A stretch of DNA of 9,425 nt from Candidatus Mcinerneyibacteriota bacterium. GTDB lineage: Bacteria > Macinerneyibacteriota > Macinerneyibacteria > Macinerneyibacteriales > DSCS01. Positions within the stretch are counted from its first letter, which is position 1; each line of letters opens with the position of its first letter. The stretch is from assembly GCA_016937175.1 (NCBI GenBank), contig JAFGWL010000008.1, positions 1 to 9,425 of the forward strand. Direction: 5' to 3'. The translations under genes and the position numbers were made by a program. Positions 352 through 9,425 of the stretch are shown piece by piece. The notes under the pieces are model-generated. The model did not search any database. It was not told the origin of the DNA and worked only from the letters and a program-made list of their open reading frames with translations.

Positions 352-1266
352 TCAGCTTTCCGCGACAAGACAGGCCAGCGCCATACAATAAAATTTTGAC
401 AACGCCGTTTCACTCCGTGACATGACCACCACAGGTTTTTCTGTCCCCTGGATAAGTCCGGCCAGTTCTCCCCCTGCAAATAGCATGAGCCCTTTATAGA
501 AAGCATTGCTCGCCTCCAGGGAAGGAAAGATCAGGATGTCCGCATCACCCTCCAGGGGGGATGCAACACCCTTTATGGCAAGGCTTTCGGGATCGCAGGC
601 GCAAAAGATATCCAGCGGTCCGTCTACGACACATCCCGTTATCTGCTTGCGCGCGTTCATCCTGGATATTAATGCATAGTCGATGGAATTGGGGAAATGA
701 GGAGAGACCTTTTCAGACGCTCCGATGAGAGCTACCCGTGGTGTCTCTATCCCGAATTTATGCGCCATCTCGACAGAATAGTCGATCATGGCCATTTTCT
801 GGCCCAGATCGGGAAAAGGCAAAACCGCTGTGTCAGCTACAAAAAGAAGCTTGTGATAGGCAGGCAGTTCGATAGCGCAGGTGTAGCTCATCACAGCGTC
901 TCGCCTCATAAGGCCGTGCTCTTTGTGAAGGACAGCCTTCAGAAATTTATCAGTCCCCACAAGCCCTTTCATGAGAATATCCGCTTCGCCGTTTTTTACG
1001 GCTGCCACAGCTTGTGCAAGAGCCTCTCCTTCATCGGCACAAGGCCTCAATTCGGCACTATCCAACGCGTCTCCCGACTTTTGCGCAGCCTCGCGTATCG
1101 GGATTTCACGCCCAAACAGGAGGGGATGGATCAGTCCTTCTTTCGTTGCCCGGCCCACCGCTTCCAGGGTGTTCTGATCCTCGGCACAGGCCACGGCAAC
1201 TCTTTTACAGACGCCCTTCTCTTTCAAGAAGGGCGCTATCTCAGATAGTCTCCGAAGGGGTTTCAT
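352..1266 (-). CDS. ptb: Phosphate butyryltransferase-family protein, divergent tandem paralogue
   Basis: A 304-residue protein of the phosphate acetyl/butyryltransferase (PTA_PTB) family, which swaps CoA for phosphate on a short acyl group in the cytoplasm; databases often label such proteins 'bifunctional enoyl-CoA hydratase/phosphate acetyltransferase'. Family blocks visible are ADILMKGLVGTDKF (95-108), YHKLLFVADTAVLPFPDL (137-154), VDGPLD (214-219), EGDADILIFPSLEASN (239-254) and a C-terminal MSRSET (282-287). Length is normal and complete. Its ATG overlaps the stop of the upstream paralogue as ATGA, so translation is probably coupled. It departs from the neighbouring copy in the usually conserved stretches (SLEASN for NIEAGN; QGTEKPVVVMSR for VGARVPAILSSR), which suggests a different acyl preference or a partner-subunit role. 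That is inference; the substrate cannot be read from sequence. No disabling mutation is visible. It is the last gene of the presumed operon. Confidence 0.85.
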   Translation of the reverse strand: MKPLRRLSEIAPFLKEKGVCKRVAVACAEDQNTLEAVGRATKEGLIHPLLFGREIPIREAAQKSGDALDSAELRPCADEGEALAQAVAAVKNGEADILMKGLVGTDKFLKAVLHKEHGLMRRDAVMSYTCAIELPAYHKLLFVADTAVLPFPDLGQKMAMIDYSVEMAHKFGIETPRVALIGASEKVSPHFPNSIDYALISRMNARKQITGCVVDGPLDIFCACDPESLAIKGVASPLEGDADILIFPSLEASNAFYKGLMLFAGGELAGLIQGTEKPVVVMSRSETALSKFYCMALACLVAES

Positions 1267-2180
1267 GCCTTTCCCCGGGCCATCATGGCAGCCAAAGCAA
1301 TGGATGCCATCTTAACCTCAACACTGTCTCCACGGGAAGAAAGGATCGCCGGGACACGGGCTCCGACTACTACAGCCCCGAGATTGGCATTAGCCAGCTT
1401 GGTATTGGTCTTGTAGAAGACATTCCCCGCTTCGATGTTGGGAAAAAGGATGCAGTCGGCATCTCCTGCCACATCACTGACAATGCCTTTGAGCTCCACA
1501 GATTCAGGGTCGATACAAAGATCCATGGCCAGGGGCCCGTCGACGAGGGCTCCTTTGATCTGCCCCCTTTCGGCCATTTTTGTGATGACCGCTGCGTCAG
1601 CGTTGGCAGGGATCTTCGCCGTGACCGTCTCGGAAGCAGCCAGCAAGGCTACTTTAGGTTTTTCTATTCCCAAGGCATGAGCTGTCTGGATCAGATAGTT
1701 TGTGATAGCCACTTTCTGGTCCAGGTCCGGCAGGGGAATAATAGCCACATCTCCCACGATCATGAGTTTATGGTAGTTGGGGTTCTCCAGGACCGTCACA
1801 TGGCTGAGGACCGCCTTTTTCTCCATGAGTCCGCTCTCCTTGTTGAGGATCCCTCTCATATATTTGTCGGTATTCACCAGCCCCTTCATGAGGATGTCAC
1901 CTTCTCCGGCATTGATGAGAGCCACAGCACGGGCCACGGCACTCGCATCATCCGGCTCATCTACGATCCGGTAGAGAGAAGCGTCGATCTTCTCCTCTTT
2001 GCATATGTCCATGATCTTTTTTTTATCGCCCACAAGGACACCTTCCACAAGGCCCATCTCCCTGGACTGATGGACAGCCCCGATGGTGTGGCTGTCATTG
2101 GCGCAAGCTGCCACAAGCACCTTCTTTGATTCATTTCTCAGGACATCAAACATCTGTTCTAATTTTGTTATCTTCATCAT
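1263..2180 (-). CDS. ptb: Phosphate butyryltransferase
   Basis: A complete 305-residue Ptb-family enzyme, expected to convert butyryl-CoA (or a related acyl-CoA) plus phosphate to butyryl phosphate plus CoA, supplying the butyrate kinase encoded just upstream. Hallmarks are GDILMKGLVNTDKYMR (94-109), YHKLMIVGDVAIIPLPDL (136-153), GALVDGPLAMD (210-220), VAGDADCILFPNIEAGN (237-253) and ILSSRGDS (279-286). These follow the canonical family pattern more closely than the downstream copy does. The reading frame opens with two adjacent ATGs (2180 and 2177). GGAGG lies only 2 bases before the first and 5 before the second, so the second Met (MKITKLEQ) may be the true start. The gap to buk is 15 bases and the overlap with the downstream paralogue is 4 bases, so all three are likely translated from one message. 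The specific substrate (butyryl, branched-chain or other) is not determined. Confidence 0.93.
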   Translation of the reverse strand: MMKITKLEQMFDVLRNESKKVLVAACANDSHTIGAVHQSREMGLVEGVLVGDKKKIMDICKEEKIDASLYRIVDEPDDASAVARAVALINAGEGDILMKGLVNTDKYMRGILNKESGLMEKKAVLSHVTVLENPNYHKLMIVGDVAIIPLPDLDQKVAITNYLIQTAHALGIEKPKVALLAASETVTAKIPANADAAVITKMAERGQIKGALVDGPLAMDLCIDPESVELKGIVSDVAGDADCILFPNIEAGNVFYKTNTKLANANLGAVVVGARVPAILSSRGDSVEVKMASIALAAMMARGKA

Positions 2181-2195
2181 GACCTCCGTTCCCTG

Positions 2196-3269
2196 TCAGG
2201 AATATTTTTTGCTCTTTTCTTCTCCCGCCATGACGCGCCTTCCGGCGTCCGCCAGGGCTTCCATCTCTTTTTCACCCGGATATTCTATATGTTTTCCGAG
2301 AAAACTCAAATGCTCTTTCAAAAAAGGCATGAGGATCTTTTGAGCATAGACAAGTCCGCCGGTGAAGACGACAGCATCCACCTCTCCTTTAAGAACTGCG
2401 GCGGCACCTCCCGCCTCTTTGACGACCTGATAGCCCATGGCTTTGAGAGCGGAGAGCGCAGTCTCGTCTCCCTCAGCAGCCCTCTTTTCCAGTTCCGATC
2501 CGTTATCTGTCCCCGTATAGGCGATGAGCCCGCTCTTTTTTGCGAATTTGCCTTCCAGTTCCTTCTGGGTATACTCTCCGCTGAAACACATCTGGATAAG
2601 ATCACCGATGGGAAGAGCCCCGGCTCTCTGGGGAGAAAATGGCCCCATCCCTAATAGGGCATTGTTGACATCGATGCATCGTCCCTCCCGGACGGCGACT
2701 ACCGAGATCCCGCCTCCCATATGGATCACCACGAAATTACACTTTTCCAGGGGTTTCCCCAGCTCAGAGGCCGCTTTTCTCGCACAGGCCCTTACATTAA
2801 GGGCATGGAACAGGGATTTCCTCTTGATCTCGGGAACTCCTGAAAAGCGCGCCAGTTCGCACATCTCATCTACAGTAACCGGGTCGGTGATAAAGGCGGG
2901 GATCCCGGCTTCATCTCCTATGGATCTGGCCAGGTAAGCCCCCAGGTTCGAGGCATGCTCCCGTCCCCAGATCCCCTTGTCAGCCAGGTCATCAAGCATA
3001 GCCCGGTTGACTTCATAGACACCCCCTTCGATAGGTTTCATCAGCCCTCCGCGGCCAACGACCACGTCGAGGTCACCGAGAGATAAACCCCTCTCCTCAA
3101 GGGCCTGAGTGATAAAACCTTTACGGAATTCAAACTGGTCCACAATGCGTTGAAAACCGGCGATCTCGTCAGCGTCATGCCGTATCGTCTCTTCAAATAA
3201 AGCCGTGTTATCTTCAAAAACTGCGATCTTAGTCGAAGTCGACCCGGGATTAATAGTTAAAATCTTCAT
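2196..3269 (-). CDS. buk: Butyrate kinase
   Basis: A 357-residue acetokinase-family (ASKHA fold) enzyme that transfers phosphate from butyryl phosphate to ADP, giving butyrate and ATP in the cytoplasm; the reaction is reversible. Visible motifs are the N-terminal phosphate loop NPGSTSTKIAVF (7-18), VGRGGLMKPIEGGVY (71-85), KSLFHALN (151-158) with the conserved His, the second phosphate loop VIHMGGGISV (181-190), GPFSPQRAGALP (209-220) and the adenosine loop VFTGGL (301-306). Length is typical for Buk and shorter than acetate kinase, and RGGLMKPIEGG is characteristic of Buk. The ATG at 3269 follows an AAGGGGGG ribosome site (3273-3280), which also overlaps the stop of comM. The two ptb genes directly downstream confirm the pathway. 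Branched-chain acid kinase activity is possible, since Buk homologues are often broad. Confidence 0.95.
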   Translation of the reverse strand: MKILTINPGSTSTKIAVFEDNTALFEETIRHDADEIAGFQRIVDQFEFRKGFITQALEERGLSLGDLDVVVGRGGLMKPIEGGVYEVNRAMLDDLADKGIWGREHASNLGAYLARSIGDEAGIPAFITDPVTVDEMCELARFSGVPEIKRKSLFHALNVRACARKAASELGKPLEKCNFVVIHMGGGISVVAVREGRCIDVNNALLGMGPFSPQRAGALPIGDLIQMCFSGEYTQKELEGKFAKKSGLIAYTGTDNGSELEKRAAEGDETALSALKAMGYQVVKEAGGAAAVLKGEVDAVVFTGGLVYAQKILMPFLKEHLSFLGKHIEYPGEKEMEALADAGRRVMAGEEKSKKYS

Positions 3270-3278
3270 ACGCCCCCC

Positions 3279-4811
3279 TTAATAGTTTTCTAATATTTCA
3301 TCCATGACCCGCCGATGCTGGACAGCTTCAGCGATGTGCACATCCTCTATTCTCTCCCGCTCATCAATATCAGCGATGGTACGGGCTACTTTTAAGATCC
3401 TGTGATACGACCGGGCTGAAAGAGCATACTCCCGGACAGCCCCCTCCAGAAGCCGGTCAGCTTCTGCTGTCAGGGGACAATGTTTTTTCACCAGGGAGGC
3501 AGGCATCTCCGCATTAAAGGAGAGTCTCCCTTTTTTAAACCGCTCCCTCTGGACAGCCGCCGCCCGGCTCACCCTTTTCCGGATGGATGCAGAATCTTCC
3601 TCCCGCCAATCCCCTTTCAGTTCCCGATACTCCACCCTGGGCACCTCCACCTGGATGTCGACACGGTCGAGCAGAGGCCCCGAGATCCTTCTCCTGTAGC
3701 GGTAGATATCTGACGGAGAACATCTGCACTCCCGGGCTTTATCTCCCAGATAACCGCAGGGGCAGGGGTTCATAGCCGCCACCAGGAGAAAATCTGCAGG
3801 ATACCTCACAGCATAAGCTGCCCTGGTGATATGGATCTCTTTGGACTCCAGGGGTTGCCGGAGTACTTCTATGGTCCCCTTTTTAAATTCGGGGAATTCA
3901 TCCAGGAACAGAACTCCCTTATGGGCCAGACTGATCTCCCCCGGTTTGGGATGATGCCCTCCGCCCACAAGCCCCACGTCACTGATGGTGTGATGGGGCG
4001 CTCTGAAGGGACGGCGTCTCAGGAGCGGTTCCTTTTCAGACAGTAGGCCGCTTACGCTGTATATCTTTGTCACTTCCAGGGCTTCTCTTCGGCTCATAGG
4101 AGGAAGGATAGAGGGAATACGCCTGGCCAGCATGGTTTTTCCGGTCCCGGGAGGCCCGATCATAAGGATATTATGCCGCCCCGCCACGGCGACTTCAATA
4201 GCCCGCTTTGCTACAGCCTGTCCCCTGACTTCGCTCATATCAAGGCTGTCTTCATCCGGAGCCGTCTCCATCCGGCCGTCATCCCCTGTCAAAGGGGAGA
4301 TGGGTTCGGTCCCGTTGAGAAAGCCCATGACTTCACCCAGATGAGAGACCGGGAAGATCTTCAACCCTCTCACAAAGGAAGCCTCCAAAGCATTTTCAGA
4401 GGGGCAAATCAGGTGAAGACTGTTCCGGGCCGCCCACTCAGCCAGAGGCAGAATCCCTTTGATCTTTCGGATCGATCCATCCAGGGCCAATTCTCCGGCC
4501 ATCAGGAAACGGGAAAGATCGCCCTTGACAAGATCCAGCGCCGCCAGGACAGAGACCGCCATGGGAAGGTCATAATGAGCTCCCTCCTTTTTCATATCCG
4601 CAGGAGCCAGATTGACCACGATCTTTTTATTCATGAGCTTGACTCCGCAATGGGTGAAAGCGACTCTGATCCGCTCCCGGCTCTCTTTTGTAACCGTATC
4701 TCCAAGACCCACAACAGTAAAACTGGGGAGGCCCGGGGAGACACCCGATTCGATGGTCACTTCATAAGGGATAATTCCGCTAACACCTGCTGATAAGACT
4801 TTACTGACCAT
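3279..4811 (-). CDS. comM: ComM/YifB-family Mg-chelatase-like AAA+ ATPase
   Basis: A 510-residue protein of the YifB/ComM family, AAA+ helicase-like ATPases; ComM drives branch migration during integration of DNA taken up by natural transformation, and the family is widespread in non-competent bacteria too. Order: an N-terminal Lon-S5-like ChlI domain (about 1-165) with LPSFTVVGLGDT and NLAPADMKKEGAHYDLP; Walker A GPPGTGKT (219-226); the YifB-specific FRAPHHTISDVGLVGGG (269-285); Walker B VLFLDEFPEF (300-309); a cysteine cluster NPCPCGYLGD plus CRC (C350, C352, C362, C364) that may bind metal; DRVDI (382-386) with an arginine-finger candidate; and a C-terminal lid with SARSYHRILKVART (465-478). 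I chose the ATG at 4811 (MVSKVLSAGVSG), which matches the family start. A longer TTG start at 4832 would add seven unconserved residues. The gene overlaps panC by 11 bases. Its role here is probably housekeeping and unrelated to its neighbours. Confidence 0.93.
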   Translation of the reverse strand: MVSKVLSAGVSGIIPYEVTIESGVSPGLPSFTVVGLGDTVTKESRERIRVAFTHCGVKLMNKKIVVNLAPADMKKEGAHYDLPMAVSVLAALDLVKGDLSRFLMAGELALDGSIRKIKGILPLAEWAARNSLHLICPSENALEASFVRGLKIFPVSHLGEVMGFLNGTEPISPLTGDDGRMETAPDEDSLDMSEVRGQAVAKRAIEVAVAGRHNILMIGPPGTGKTMLARRIPSILPPMSRREALEVTKIYSVSGLLSEKEPLLRRRPFRAPHHTISDVGLVGGGHHPKPGEISLAHKGVLFLDEFPEFKKGTIEVLRQPLESKEIHITRAAYAVRYPADFLLVAAMNPCPCGYLGDKARECRCSPSDIYRYRRRISGPLLDRVDIQVEVPRVEYRELKGDWREEDSASIRKRVSRAAAVQRERFKKGRLSFNAEMPASLVKKHCPLTAEADRLLEGAVREYALSARSYHRILKVARTIADIDERERIEDVHIAEAVQHRRVMDEILENY

Positions 4812-5649
4812 TACTCCATACCATATTATCAATCAGTCTTGTTTCTTCCACATAAACCGCCAGTGCAAAGAGAGTTCCTCCGGGATTGATATCCCCCTCA
4901 AAGGGTTCCAGTGTCTCAGCGTCTGCCACCCGGGCATAATCCAGGCGGGCCGACGGGACAGATCGGACGGACTCTTCCATGATTCTCTCAAGCTCTCTTG
5001 CAGAGCGCACTCCCTTTTTTAGAGCATCCCGTGCCTTATTCAGCGTTTTTCGAAGGACGAGGGCTTCTTTACGCCCTTTATCTGATAAATATTTATTGCG
5101 TGAACTCATAGCTAAGCCGTCCTCCTCACGGATAATGGGACACGGGATCACCTCGACCGGGAAGTGGAGGTCTTTCACCATTCGTTCGATGACTTTAAAC
5201 TGCTGATAGTCCTTTAGCCCGAAATAGGCCTTCCCGGGACGGACAAGTTGGAAGAGCTTCGCTACGATAGTGCAGACCCCCCTGAAATGGGTAGGCCTGG
5301 AAAGGCCGCACAGGTACTGCGTCAACCGGGTGACTTCAATATAGGTCTGGTATCCTTCAGGGTAGATCTCTTCTGTTGCGGGGACAAAGAGAGCCTGCAC
5401 TCCTTCTTCGGCACACAATCGGGCATCGCGTTCCAGATCCCGGGGATACTTGTCCAGATCCTCGGCAGGCCCGAATTGAGCAGGGTTGACAAAGAGAGAG
5501 ACGACCACATGGTCATTTTCTTCGACAGCTTTACGGATAAGAGAGAGATGCCCTTCATGGAGATAGCCCATGGTCGGGACCAGCCCCACTTCTCCTTCAA
5601 GCTCCCGGCGAAAGGATCTCATCGCTTCTACACTGTTGAGTCTTTTCAT
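4801..5649 (-). CDS. panC: Pantothenate synthetase (pantoate--beta-alanine ligase)
   Basis: A complete 282-residue PanC, which joins pantoate and beta-alanine with ATP (via pantoyl adenylate) in the last step of pantothenate synthesis on the way to CoA. Signatures are VPTMGYLHEGHLSLI (24-38, the HxGH nucleotide-binding motif), VVSLFVNPAQFGPAEDLDKYPR (49-70), YFGLKDYQQFKVI (142-154; GLKD where E. coli-type enzymes have GEKD, a common variant), and REEDGLAMSSRNKYL (174-188, KMSKS-like ATP loop). The C-terminal domain continues to about 276 with the usual GGTLFALAV block. The ATG at 5649 is preceded by AAAGGAGAAT, a strong ribosome site that overlaps the stop of panB; the gap is 9 bases. The end overlaps comM by 11 bases. 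The adjacent panB makes the precursor. No panD or panE is present in the window, so beta-alanine supply and ketopantoate reduction must come from elsewhere. Confidence 0.97.
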   Translation of the reverse strand: MKRLNSVEAMRSFRRELEGEVGLVPTMGYLHEGHLSLIRKAVEENDHVVVSLFVNPAQFGPAEDLDKYPRDLERDARLCAEEGVQALFVPATEEIYPEGYQTYIEVTRLTQYLCGLSRPTHFRGVCTIVAKLFQLVRPGKAYFGLKDYQQFKVIERMVKDLHFPVEVIPCPIIREEDGLAMSSRNKYLSDKGRKEALVLRKTLNKARDALKKGVRSARELERIMEESVRSVPSARLDYARVADAETLEPFEGDINPGGTLFALAVYVEETRLIDNMVWSNGQ

Positions 5650-5658
5650 ATTCTCCTT

Positions 5659-6459
5659 TCACGGCCTCAGGACATTCTCTTCCCCGGGGAACGTCCTTTC
5701 TTTGACCGCCCGGACATATTTTTTTACACTTCTTGTCACCGTGCGTCCCACCTGACTGAATATTCGTGTATGTTTAGGGGTAAAATCAGGGTAAAGGCCC
5801 ATAATGTCGTAACAGACCTGGATCTCTCCATCGCAAAAACGTCCCGACCCGATCCCGATCACGGGAATACGAAGCTCCTCGGATATCTGCTTCCCAAGGG
5901 ATTCGGGAACCGACTCAAGGACAAGCGCTGTTATTCCCGCCTCTTCGAGTTTCAGGGCCCAATCCATGATACGCTCCCGCTCTTCCATGGCGCGTCCCCG
6001 GACGATCTCCCGGCCGAAGGCCTTGACGGACTGAGGTGTATATCCTAAATGTCCTACCACGGGAATACCGCACTCGACCAGACGGCCGGCCAGTTCCGTA
6101 TGAGATCCCTCGAATTTGACTGCGGAAGCTCCGGTAGCGCTCATCAGGCGTCCGGCATTTCTGATCCCCTCTTCTACGGAGACTTGAAATGACATGAAAG
6201 GCATATCCACCGCCACAAAGGCCCGGCTGGTCCCTCTGACCACAGCGCTCCCATGGGATATCATCTGATCCATGGTCACACGCAGGGTATTCTCTTCACC
6301 ATAGACCACCATCCCCAGGGAATCTCCCACAAGGATCATATCCACGCCGGCCCGATCGATGGCCCTGGCCATCGAGTAGTCATACGCCGTAAGCGCTGTG
6401 ACCCGTTCTCCCCTGGCTTTCATTTTGATCATATCCTGAGAGGTCAATCTTTTTTCCAT
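5659..6459 (-). CDS. panB: 3-methyl-2-oxobutanoate hydroxymethyltransferase (ketopantoate synthase)
   Basis: A complete 266-residue PanB, a TIM-barrel enzyme that adds a one-carbon unit from methylenetetrahydrofolate to alpha-ketoisovalerate, giving ketopantoate for pantothenate and CoA. Visible motifs are the opening ALTAYDYSMA (22-31), VGDSLGMVVYG (44-54) with the metal-binding Asp46, VAVDMPFMS (82-90) with Asp85, AVKFEG (113-118) with Lys115, GHLGYTPQS (136-144), VLESVP (180-185) with the catalytic Glu182, and IGIGSGRFCDGEIQV (201-215). Size is typical. The start at 6459 (MEKRLTSQDM) is preceded by GGGGGG and lies inside the 3' end of folK, a 16-base overlap that suggests translational coupling. 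panB needs a folate cofactor, so a link to folK makes metabolic sense. panC follows 9 bases downstream. Confidence 0.97.
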   Translation of the reverse strand: MEKRLTSQDMIKMKARGERVTALTAYDYSMARAIDRAGVDMILVGDSLGMVVYGEENTLRVTMDQMISHGSAVVRGTSRAFVAVDMPFMSFQVSVEEGIRNAGRLMSATGASAVKFEGSHTELAGRLVECGIPVVGHLGYTPQSVKAFGREIVRGRAMEERERIMDWALKLEEAGITALVLESVPESLGKQISEELRIPVIGIGSGRFCDGEIQVCYDIMGLYPDFTPKHTRIFSQVGRTVTRSVKKYVRAVKERTFPGEENVLRP

Positions 6460-7241
6460 ATGTCCCCCCGACTTTTTAATCTGTGGATCCCTTCTCCCTT
6501 ACCTGCCCGGACTCTTCGGCCGGTCTCCGGATCCCTGAACTCCCCTAAAAGCTCTGTCAAAGGAAGGAGGACAAAATCCCTCTTCATCCTCTCCCTGTGA
6601 GGGATCCTCAGATCCTTCTCTTCACAAATCTCTTCGTCATAATAAATGATATCGATATCAATGGGCCGGGGCCTGTTCCTCTTGGACCATCCCCTCCCCA
6701 TATCCTCTTCTATCTCTTTCACATAAGACAAAAGCGCCCTTGGAGACAGAGGTGTCCTACCCAAAAGGGCCATATTGTAAAAAGGAGGCTGCTGAAGAAA
6801 CCCGGCAGGAGGCGATTCATAAAGAGAGGAGAAGAGGTCACAGAAAAAACTCTTGCGCTTTTTCAGCTCCTGCACAGCTTTCACCAGATTATTCTCCCTC
6901 TTTTCTGTATTGCTTCCCAGGGCCAGGGCCACACTGTGAAGACGGGCTACAGCCCTTCGGCTGATACTTTCTCCGCTGACACTCTTCAGAAAGACTTCTG
7001 CCTCCCAGAGGGTGGCAGGAATCTTATCGAAAAGAAACTCCAGGAGGAGCCCCGGCATATCGTCCATGGAATAAGCGATTGTGTCAAGAAAGCGATCTGT
7101 CCATTGGACGAGTTTTTCAGAAGAGAGGCCGGAAGAAGGAAAAAAGGAAGAATCTGTCCCTGTTTTCACTGAAATCCGGGCGGCCTGCTCTTCATCAGCC
7201 CCTGGCACAGAAATAGCTCGGGAGTAAGTAATCTCATCCAT
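6444..7241 (-). CDS. folK: 2-amino-4-hydroxy-6-hydroxymethyldihydropteridine diphosphokinase with unknown N-terminal extension
   Basis: The 265-residue product has a complete HPPK domain from about residue 104 to 245: VALALGSNTEKRENNL (104-119), YESPPAGFLQQPPFYNMA (141-158), TPLSPRALL (163-171), EEDMGR (178-183), the signature RPRPIDIDIIYYDEE (190-204), and IPHRERMKRDFVLLPL (213-228). HPPK moves pyrophosphate from ATP to hydroxymethyldihydropterin in folate synthesis. The signature has Arg190 where Gly or Ala is usual before P-R. Residues 1-103 are extra: usual HPPKs begin at the LGSN strand. This part, with LVQWTDRFLDTIAYSMDD (44-61), looks folded and largely helical, but I do not recognise it. 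An in-frame TGA (7254-7256) rules out a longer start; the ATG at 7241 has only a weak GGG upstream. The predicted promoter would place +1 on this ATG, so either the message is leaderless or translation begins inside the extension. The gene overlaps panB by 16 bases. Confidence 0.88.
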   Translation of the reverse strand: MDEITYSRAISVPGADEEQAARISVKTGTDSSFFPSSGLSSEKLVQWTDRFLDTIAYSMDDMPGLLLEFLFDKIPATLWEAEVFLKSVSGESISRRAVARLHSVALALGSNTEKRENNLVKAVQELKKRKSFFCDLFSSLYESPPAGFLQQPPFYNMALLGRTPLSPRALLSYVKEIEEDMGRGWSKRNRPRPIDIDIIYYDEEICEEKDLRIPHRERMKRDFVLLPLTELLGEFRDPETGRRVRAGKGEGIHRLKSRGDIWKKD

Positions 7242-7247
7242 AAGCCC

Positions 7248-7275
7248 ATCATATCATATCCCCTTTTGATGTCAA
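7248..7275 (-). promoter_or_regulatory. Sigma70-type promoter upstream of folK
   Basis: On the minus strand TTGACA (7275-7270, perfect -35) is followed after 16 bases by TATGAT (7253-7248, one mismatch to TATAAT). The predicted start, 7 bases past the -10, is position 7241, the A of the annotated folK ATG. A second TATGAT (7258-7253) overlaps the first but has only an 11-base spacer. This promoter would drive folK-panB-panC-comM-buk-ptb-ptb. It is one of only two convincing promoter matches found in the window's gaps. Confidence 0.62.
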
Positions 7276-7285
7276 ACAAAAGGGG
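7260..7285. repeat. Perfect 9-bp inverted repeat enclosing the -35 box (operator or terminator stem)
   Basis: CCCCTTTTG (7260-7268) and CAAAAGGGG (7277-7285) are perfectly complementary around an 8-base loop that holds the -35 hexamer of the folK promoter. On the minus strand the hairpin comes 7 bases after the stop of the ZIP gene, but no U-run follows (ATATGATATG), so it is a poor intrinsic terminator. The position over the -35 would suit a dimeric repressor operator. In read-through RNA the stem could also act as a 3' hairpin for the upstream message. The structure is certain, the role is not. Confidence 0.6.
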
Positions 7286-7292
7286 AAACGGC

Positions 7293-8102
7293 TCAGCCCA
7301 GGGCCACATCCAGAAGCATCATGACGGCAAACCCCAGCGTAAACCCCATGGTAGCCAGGTCGATATTCCCATGCTGCTGAGAATCAGGAACAGCATCTTC
7401 TATGACCACGAAGATCATGGCTCCTGCAGCGAAGGCAAGAGCAAACGGCAGAATAGGTTTAACCGCCACAACAGCCAGAGCCCCAAGCACCGCCGAGAGA
7501 GGTTCCACAAGTCCAGATAATTGTCCGTAAAAAAAACTTTTCCTCCGGCTGAGCCCGACCTGCCTGAGGGGAAAAGCGACTGCCGCGCCTTCCGGGAAGT
7601 TCTGGATCCCGATGCCCAGCGCCAGGGCTACCGCACCGGCAGGGGAAGCGGCGGGAACTCCTCCGGCAAGAGCACCGAAAGCCACTCCCACCGCCAGCCC
7701 CTCGGGAATATTATGGAGTGTCACGGCCAGCACAAGGAGAATACTTTTTTTCAATCCCGTGTGGAGTCCCTCAGCTTTATTGATATCCAGCCCCGGATGA
7801 AGATGGGGTAGAATACGGTCCAGCCCCCAGAGGAAGAAGACTCCCGCCAAAAAACCCGTTACCGCAGGCAGCCAGGGCGGGACAGGAAGCTCCTCGGCCA
7901 TCTCGATGGCAGGAGCCAGAAGAGACCAGTAGCTGGCGGCCGTCATGACTCCGGCGGCGAAGGCCAGCATAAGGTCGTGAAGCTTAAGGTTCACTCCTTT
8001 CATCATAAAGACCGTTCCGGCTCCCAAGGTCGTCATCAGCCAGGTAAAGATACCCGCTGCCAGCGCCAATAGAAGAGGGTCATACTGCAGCAGAGATTCC
8101 AT
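7293..8102 (-). CDS. ZIP-family divalent metal transporter (GufA/ZupT-like)
   Basis: A complete 269-residue inner-membrane protein with about eight hydrophobic segments, at about 8-30, 43-65, 77-98, 119-145, 152-178, 190-212, 216-235 and 248-267. The ZIP metal site is clear: HNIPEG in TM4 (130-135; H130, N131, E134), QNFPEG in TM5 (167-172; Q167, N168, E171) and Glu200 in GLVEP of TM6. A Gln at the start of the TM5 motif is, from memory, also found in the structurally studied Bordetella ZIP of the GufA subfamily, which has a two-metal site. Such proteins import zinc, iron or manganese; the metal here cannot be told. A His-containing cytoplasmic loop (LPHLHPG, 98-104) may sense or deliver metal. 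AGGAGG precedes the ATG at 8102. The gene sits 21 bases after the amidohydrolase, probably in one transcript, and the upstream enzyme is itself metal-dependent. Confidence 0.92.
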
Positions 8103-8123: not shown

Positions 8124-9293
8124 TCAGGAAAGGATATTGTGTACGATCTTTCCGTCAATGAGTGTCAATCTGCAGACACTCTTCATCTCAAAGGGATCCC
8201 CGTCAAAAACAGCAATATCGGCATCTTTCCCGGGTTCAAGGCTTCCGATACGGTCTGCACAGTCACAGATCTCGGCAGCATGAAGAGTCACCGATTTCAA
8301 AGCGCCCTCTTCAGAGAGGCCGTTTTTACGAGCCAGGCCCACCATGAGGGGAAGATAGTCGATGGGAATGACCGGAGCATCGGTCATGATCGCGACCTTT
8401 ACTCCAGCTTTTTCCAGGATTCCCGCTGTGGAAAAAGTGATATCTTTCAGCTCCTCTTTGACCCGTGCACTCATAGAGGGGCCGATAATTGCATCGATCT
8501 TGTTTTTCGCCAGATATGGAGCGATCTTATGGCCATCGGTACAATGCTCAATACGAAGCTTGAACCCGAACTCTTTCTGAATACGGATGACTGTTATGAT
8601 GTCGTCAAACCTGTGGGCATGACAACGGGCCGTTAGTTTTCCTTCCAGGACAGAGGCCAGAACCTCATTCTGCAGATCAAACTCAGGGGCTTTATCCGGA
8701 TCCTTCTTTCCCCTCTTTTTCTTCTCCAGGTAGTTTTTCGCTTTATAAAAGGCCTCTCTCATGACAGCTGCATTCCCCATCCGTGTGGAAGGATATTGGT
8801 TCTTCCCCACTCCGTAGACCCGTTTGGGGTTTTCTCCCAGAGCCATCTTCAACCCGGCAGGATCTTTCACTACGAGCTCATCCACCACCGAAGAACCGGC
8901 GGTCTTTATGACCACAGACTGCCCTCCGATCACATTGGCGCTTCCCGGGCCGGTAAAGACAGCTGTGATCCCCGCCTTGCAGGCGTCCTTGAAGGCTATA
9001 TCGTCGGGGTTGATGGCGTCGATGGCCCGGAGGTGGGGTGTCGAAGGGTTGGTCATCTCATTACCGTCGGATCCGGCCCATTCATTGCTCTCCTCCCACA
9101 TCCCCACATGGCAATGGGCATCGATAAATCCGGGAGTCACAATCATCCCGCTGCAGTCGATGACCTGGCATTTGGGGGGAGTCGTGAGACCTGCACCGAT
9201 CTCCTTGATCTTTCCATGATCCACGAGGACATCACACTTTTCTCTCCGTTTTCCCCGTCCGTCCAGGACTGTTCCGTTTTTCAGTAAAATCAT
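8124..9293 (-). CDS. Metal-dependent amidohydrolase (imidazolonepropionase/dihydroorotase-like superfamily)
   Basis: A complete 389-residue amidohydrolase-superfamily enzyme. An N-terminal beta-sandwich segment (1-50; LLKNGTVLDG, VDHGKIKEIG) precedes the TIM barrel and is completed by the C-terminal strands (350-389; GSLEPGKDADIAVFDGDP). Likely metal ligands are GFIDAHCH (H60, H62), CHAHRFDD (H225, H227), RIEHCTDGH (H250) and MTDAPV (Asp305). I see no obvious carboxylated lysine as in two-metal dihydroorotases, so one metal may be bound. The blocks GNEMTNPSTPHLRAID (78-93) and GPGSANVIGGQ (115-125) mark a subfamily known from many anaerobes and usually annotated only as 'amidohydrolase'; the substrate, probably a cyclic amide or imidazolone-like ring, is unknown. 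There is no signal peptide, so it is cytoplasmic. AAGGAGGTC precedes the ATG at 9293. It follows the glf-like gene by 20 bases and is followed by the ZIP transporter. Confidence 0.9.
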   Translation of the reverse strand: MILLKNGTVLDGRGKRREKCDVLVDHGKIKEIGAGLTTPPKCQVIDCSGMIVTPGFIDAHCHVGMWEESNEWAGSDGNEMTNPSTPHLRAIDAINPDDIAFKDACKAGITAVFTGPGSANVIGGQSVVIKTAGSSVVDELVVKDPAGLKMALGENPKRVYGVGKNQYPSTRMGNAAVMREAFYKAKNYLEKKKRGKKDPDKAPEFDLQNEVLASVLEGKLTARCHAHRFDDIITVIRIQKEFGFKLRIEHCTDGHKIAPYLAKNKIDAIIGPSMSARVKEELKDITFSTAGILEKAGVKVAIMTDAPVIPIDYLPLMVGLARKNGLSEEGALKSVTLHAAEICDCADRIGSLEPGKDADIAVFDGDPFEMKSVCRLTLIDGKIVHNILS

Positions 9294-9313
9294 AAGACCT
9301 CCTTTTTTAATGT

Positions 9314-9425
9314 CTAATATTTTTCTGCCGCGGAATATGCCGCTTCCATGGCCTGTGACATATTGTAGTACTTGTATTCGGCGAGCCTCCCCACCGGGAA
9401 AAGAGATCTGTAGGAATCCGCCAGG
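9314..9425 (-). CDS. glf: UDP-galactopyranose mutase-like protein, C-terminal end (cut by window edge)
   Basis: Only the last 37 codons are inside the window, ending in TAG at 9314-9316; the frame stays open to the right edge. The peptide begins LADSYRSLFPVGRLAEYKYYNM, shown here as two overlapping pieces: LADSYRSLFPVG and VGRLAEYKYYNMSQAMEAA. The block GRLAEYKYYxMxQ is, from memory, the C-terminal signature of UDP-galactopyranose mutase, where E. coli Glf reads FGGRLAEYKYYDMHQ. That flavoenzyme makes UDP-galactofuranose for surface polysaccharides. A related FAD-dependent amine-oxidase-family protein of a polysaccharide cluster is possible, because the FAD-binding N-terminus is not visible. 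The amidohydrolase starts 20 bases downstream, so the two could be co-transcribed. Confidence 0.72.
   Translation of the reverse strand, partial: LADSYRSLFPVGRLAEYKYYNMSQAMEAAYSAAEKY

Follow-up and report, generated by a model that had tools for sequence, protein, structure and literature searches.

The 34 bases preceding folK in the genome of Candidatus Mcinerneyibacteriota bacterium most likely form a housekeeping (sigma-70-type) promoter of the extended -10 class that gives rise to an operon mRNA with a leaderless first gene, a reading to which we assign a probability of about 80% on the basis of sequence comparison. What is observed directly is the sequence itself, its conservation and a genome-wide class of such starts. 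Transcription would begin on the initial A of the folK ATG, or within 1-2 bases of it, so that folK-panB-panC-comM-buk-ptb would be transcribed as an mRNA with folK as its first, leaderless gene. folK would then be translated without a Shine-Dalgarno sequence and the downstream genes as ordinary operon members. Both the exact transcription start and the leaderless translation of folK are probable assignments; the start could lie 1-2 bases downstream of 7241, and possibly read-through from the amidohydrolase-ZIP pair yields a leadered folK transcript. The preliminary description of this DNA had already raised a promoter and a leaderless folK, and this proposal is supported by conservation in both available relatives and by the genome-wide class of similarly placed promoters. 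A literature search for a leaderless folK returned nothing relevant.

The window, i.e. the whole stretch of 9,425 nucleotides analysed here, is contig C55 of the home genome G000 (1.88 Mb, 98.7% complete), and its features are compiled in Table 1. The comparison set consisted of three genomes of the phylum: G000, a genome of the same genus (G001, locus L006) and one of the same order (G002, locus L007).

Table 1 Coordinates of folK, its promoter, the inverted repeat and neighbouring genes (window positions unless a contig is given)
Feature	Position	Strand	Remarks
ZIP-family metal transporter	7293..8102	-	upstream neighbour, ends 51 nt before folK; 82% identical in G001
Perfect inverted repeat TCCCCTTTTG-N8-CAAAAGGGGA	7259..7286		species-specific
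-35 hexamer TTGACA	7270..7275	-	inside inverted-repeat loop; identical in G001 (L006), TTGATA in G002 (L007)
-10 hexamer TATGAT	7248..7253	-	TGnTATGAT, extended -10; TATGAT and TG invariant in 3/3 phylum genomes
Discriminator GGGCTT, 6 nt	7242..7247	-	between -10 and folK start codon
Predicted transcription start, A of folK ATG	7241	-	predicted from spacing and conservation
folK (HPPK)	6444..7241	-	PF01288 at residues 106-231; N-terminal extension of ~100 residues
panB, operon gene 2	5659..6459	-	same order in G001 and G002
Remaining operon genes	352..5649	-	gaps <=15 nt
panC	4801-5649	-	
comM/yifB-like	3279-4832	-	
buk	2196-3269	-	
ptb paralogues, two	1263-2180, 352-1266	-	
ftsE-like ABC ATPase gene promoter	G000:C49:17574-17610 (L198); G001:C12:25216-25252 (L191)		

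Promoter upstream of folK

Read 5' to 3' on the minus strand, the sequence before folK is TCCCCTTTTG-TTTGACAT-CAAAAGGGGA-TATGATATGATGGGCTT-ATG. Re-reading of this strand confirmed the two hexamers, their spacing of 16 nt and the ATG at 7241 as originally described, together with the in-frame TGA (7256-7254) that closes the folK frame upstream. With 11 of 12 consensus bases, the folK promoter is the top-scoring promoter of the window, and the A of the ATG (7241-7239) is the 7th base past the -10 hexamer, which is the usual position for transcription to begin. The folK start was scored as lacking a Shine-Dalgarno sequence in all three genomes (G000, G001 and G002). A further promoter-like arrangement, TAGACA-N16-TATGAT (10/12), is located at 9289-9316 of the window and overlaps the start of the amidohydrolase gene.

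Pairwise alignment of G000 with G001 revealed 25 of 28 identical bases from the -35 to the -10 hexamer and 40 of 46 across 7275-7230, whereas identity amounted to 6/16 (38%) in the adjoining upstream bases 7292-7277, 44/90 (49%) in folK codons 1-30 and 198/265 at the end of the ZIP gene. Being better kept than its flanks, the promoter stretch is marked as constrained. In the more distant G002, folK is preceded by TTGATA-N17-TATGAT-N6-ATG, again with a TG ahead of the -10 hexamer, so that TGnTATGAT-N6-ATG stands before folK in 3/3 genomes. The distance between -10 and ATG is unchanged in G001, and the discriminator measures 6 nt throughout, although its sequence varies (GGGCTT, GGGCAT and TAATCT). 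G002 carries a different, thioredoxin-like gene upstream, with the operon downstream being alike. The case for folK as a leaderless gene at the head of the operon rests most strongly on this 6-nt distance, which is fixed in three genomes despite the change of neighbour. A profile scan of genome contigs with the FolK alignment retrieved distant relatives only, mainly from Chloroflexota, and viral contigs scanned in the same way gave no match.

The extent of the operon was deduced from intergenic gaps of <=15 nt and from conserved gene order. In G001 the order is the same from the amidohydrolase gene through ptb, and G002 retains folK-panB-panC-comM-buk-ptb with one ptb gene instead of two. The names panC, comM, buk, ptb and ftsE were given by sequence recognition and are taken here as presumptive. 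The tandem ptb-like (phosphate butyryltransferase) paralogues that follow the butyrate kinase gene in the window (352-2180) are 74-89% identical to their G001 counterparts.

Start-proximal promoters across the genome

Promoters with a -10 match of >=5/6, a -35 match of >=4/6 and a spacing of 16-18 were located with respect to the ATGs near ORF starts, the sample covering 709 kb from the home genome and 298 kb from G001. For ATGs without a Shine-Dalgarno sequence, the home genome yielded 14 promoters at a distance of 5-7 nt vs 7 over 11 background offsets, an approximately sevenfold enrichment with a Poisson P of 1.7e-8, which is only indicative because the offsets were picked after the distribution had been seen. 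The signal in G001 alone was weaker (7 vs 11, P 0.03). At ATGs with a Shine-Dalgarno sequence no promoter fell at 5-7 nt, and the promoters were broadly spread with many at 18-35 nt. By a crude scan, the arrangement occurs at 10/618 starts.

A strict pattern (TTGA, extended -10 TATNAT, 5-7 nt, ATG) was additionally run on the three whole genomes and gave 21 matches, 12 of which open a frame of >100 codons, compared with 0 for the reversed pattern. Control distances produced 11 matches at N9-11 and 7 at N13-15, with 6 of these 18 representing the same promoters reached via a second ATG. One recurrent case is the ftsE-like gene (Table 1), for which an extended -10 promoter is found 6 nt before the ATG in both congeners, G000 and G001 (TATGAT-GAGAAT-ATG and TATGAT-AACAAT-ATG), with differing surrounding sequence; we consider ftsE a second conserved leaderless candidate. 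As far as sequence evidence can tell, this poorly sampled phylum would use leaderless mRNAs as a minority mode of initiation, folK and ftsE being its conserved examples.

Start codon and N-terminal extension of FolK

An alternative to translation from the first ATG, also put forward in the preliminary description, is an internal start within the N-terminal extension (residues 1-105, window 6927-7241), which would provide folK with a normal leader; it could draw on the fact that the HPPK domain starts only at residue ~105 and that the extension is less conserved than this domain. However, the extension is found in all three genomes, is alignable from Met1 in G001 and varies in length by whole codons. 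Moreover, across codons 1-30 of folK, G000 and G001 differ at 12, 10 and 24 sites in codon positions 1, 2 and 3, respectively. Such a third-position excess from codon 1 onwards, as in translated sequence, disfavours an internal start, and so does the constant promoter-to-ATG distance of 6 nt; we therefore regard this alternative as very improbable. This settles the call of the gene start, with the first ATG as the most likely initiation codon of the long FolK N-terminus.

A Pfam search recognised no domain in the extension. An origin as a degenerate FolB (PF02152) was considered and rejected, as there was no Pfam match and profile comparison against 23 FolB sequences gave a probability of 0.4%. 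A search of solved structures with the extension alone likewise returned nothing for FolB, and FolB (PF02152) itself was found in none of the three genomes. A weak hint comes from the full FolK profile, which aligns residues 44-242 with the FolB-FolK fusion structure 2cg8. AlphaFold prediction from the single FolK sequence resulted in an unusable model (mean pLDDT 35.5).

Inverted repeat over the -35 hexamer

The -35 hexamer is located in its entirety within the 8-nt loop (7269-7276) of a perfect inverted repeat, as had been described previously, with the correction that the arms (7259-7268 and 7277-7286) measure 10 bp rather than 9. The accompanying claim that such a pair is unlikely to arise by chance in the gap holds: in a 51-nt sequence, perfect arms of >=9 bp (loop 3-20) have a probability of 0.0016-0.003 and those of >=10 bp one of 0.00015-0.0006. 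Genome-wide, however, the folK repeat is not exceptional, 709 kb of the home genome containing 49 pairs of >=10 bp vs 14 in one simulated sequence of equal size. As for conservation, the relatives have kept the hexamers but lack the palindrome, two elements that the preliminary description had considered jointly. In G001 the left arm (7277-7286) is replaced by CCCCCTCAT, with 4/10 bases in common, and the right arm (7259-7268) retains 8/10 bases because it lies within the promoter spacer; nothing similar to the dyad was found in G002.

These observations are best accommodated by coincidence, which we consider the probable explanation: the promoter spacer CAAAAGGGGA would have been matched through drift by a complementary stretch upstream. 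The right arm is under constraint as part of the spacer, the left arm is not conserved, perfect 9-bp arm pairs also occur within coding sequence of the window, and the 14 pairs of the simulation illustrate what chance alone provides, although the local probability of <0.001 for 10-bp arms and the genomic excess over the simulation speak against it. A dimeric regulator covering the -35 hexamer, as suggested earlier, would bind both arms and keep the folK operon repressed in this species. This reading would suit the 10-bp perfect arms centred on this hexamer and their low probability in a 51-nt gap. Yet the exact site exists once in the home genome, where the remaining matches carry 3 mismatches and are as common as those of a reversed control (7 vs 6 per strand), and at <=1 mismatch it was absent from all 59 other genomes searched, a search that the preliminary description had suggested for related genomes. 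The left arm is conserved at 4/10 bases in G001 next to a promoter kept at 25/28, G002 offers nothing alike, and no regulator gene was recognised among the nine window genes. Half-site dyads of the form TTTTG-N-CAAAA showed no preferred spacing among 21 spacings in 709 kb, TTTTG-N8-CAAAA itself occurring 4 times and thus not more often than several other spacings. Repression by such a regulator is accordingly most doubtful, and, the palindrome being single-copy and unconserved with half-sites of no preferred spacing, the notion of a common regulator for folate, CoA and acyl-kinase genes acting through this site found no support.

A hairpin in the RNA just past the ZIP stop codon, which would end or protect the ZIP transcript and limit read-through into folK, is unlikely as well, if somewhat less so. 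The repeat starts 6 nt past this stop codon and the minus-strand RNA folds with -21.5 kcal/mol (z -2.95), but neither strand carries a T-tract (tails TATGATAT and AACGGCTC), whereas half of the comparable genome repeats have a T-rich end; furthermore, a terminator scan of the window does not include the repeat and the G001 RNA forms no stable hairpin at this site (z +1.55). An intrinsic terminator in the proper sense was rejected, with the hairpin present and the U-tract missing. Elsewhere in the home genome, a 12-bp perfect inverted repeat TGTCAAGGGAGGCTTCCTCCCTTGACA was noted (L140:1931-1957, G000:C10), whose right arm ends in TTGACA, a possible -35 hexamer.

We thus regard the repeat over the folK promoter as a species-level feature. 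Since the relatives do not share its left arm and its right arm is held by its place in the spacer, we assign the repeat no conserved role as an operator. The improbability of the arm pair in a random 51-nt gap leaves room for a role specific to this species, which it may have. A more elaborate version, in which this one species would have gained, in recent times, an operator or RNA hairpin for switchable control of the leaderless folate/pantothenate/acyl-kinase operon, with the relatives having the promoter without the dyad, appears improbable to us. More generally, a striking palindrome may overlie a promoter and still not act as a conserved control site.

Comparison with known systems

Operators overlapping the -35 box represent the classic arrangement for steric repression. 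The folK dyad resembles them in being centred on the -35 hexamer and departs from them in being unrepeated, unconserved and without a recognised regulator gene nearby. With intrinsic (Rho-independent) terminators the region upstream of folK shares a stable hairpin directly past a stop codon; it differs from these in the missing U-tract, the 8-nt loop and the loss of the hairpin in G001.

Leaderless genes as such are already known, and folK as read here would add a case. Bacterial leaderless genes have been described to carry a TANNNT box ~12 bp ahead of the translation start (Zheng et al. 2011, PMC3160421). In line with these, the folK -10 hexamer begins exactly 12 bp before the ATG, a Shine-Dalgarno sequence is lacking, the gene is the first of its operon and the arrangement constitutes a minority class in the genome; unlike in that description, folK additionally possesses a perfect -35 hexamer and an extended -10. 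A similar arrangement was reported for Deinococcus-Thermus, where a -10 motif ~6-7 bp before ORFs serves as an alternative to a ribosome-binding motif and nearly 1/3 of the genes of D. radiodurans have such an ORF-adjacent motif (PMC12340547). The folK -10 hexamer, 6 nt before its ORF, matches this geometry, whereas the proportion of such starts given by the crude scan (10/618) is far smaller than in D. radiodurans.
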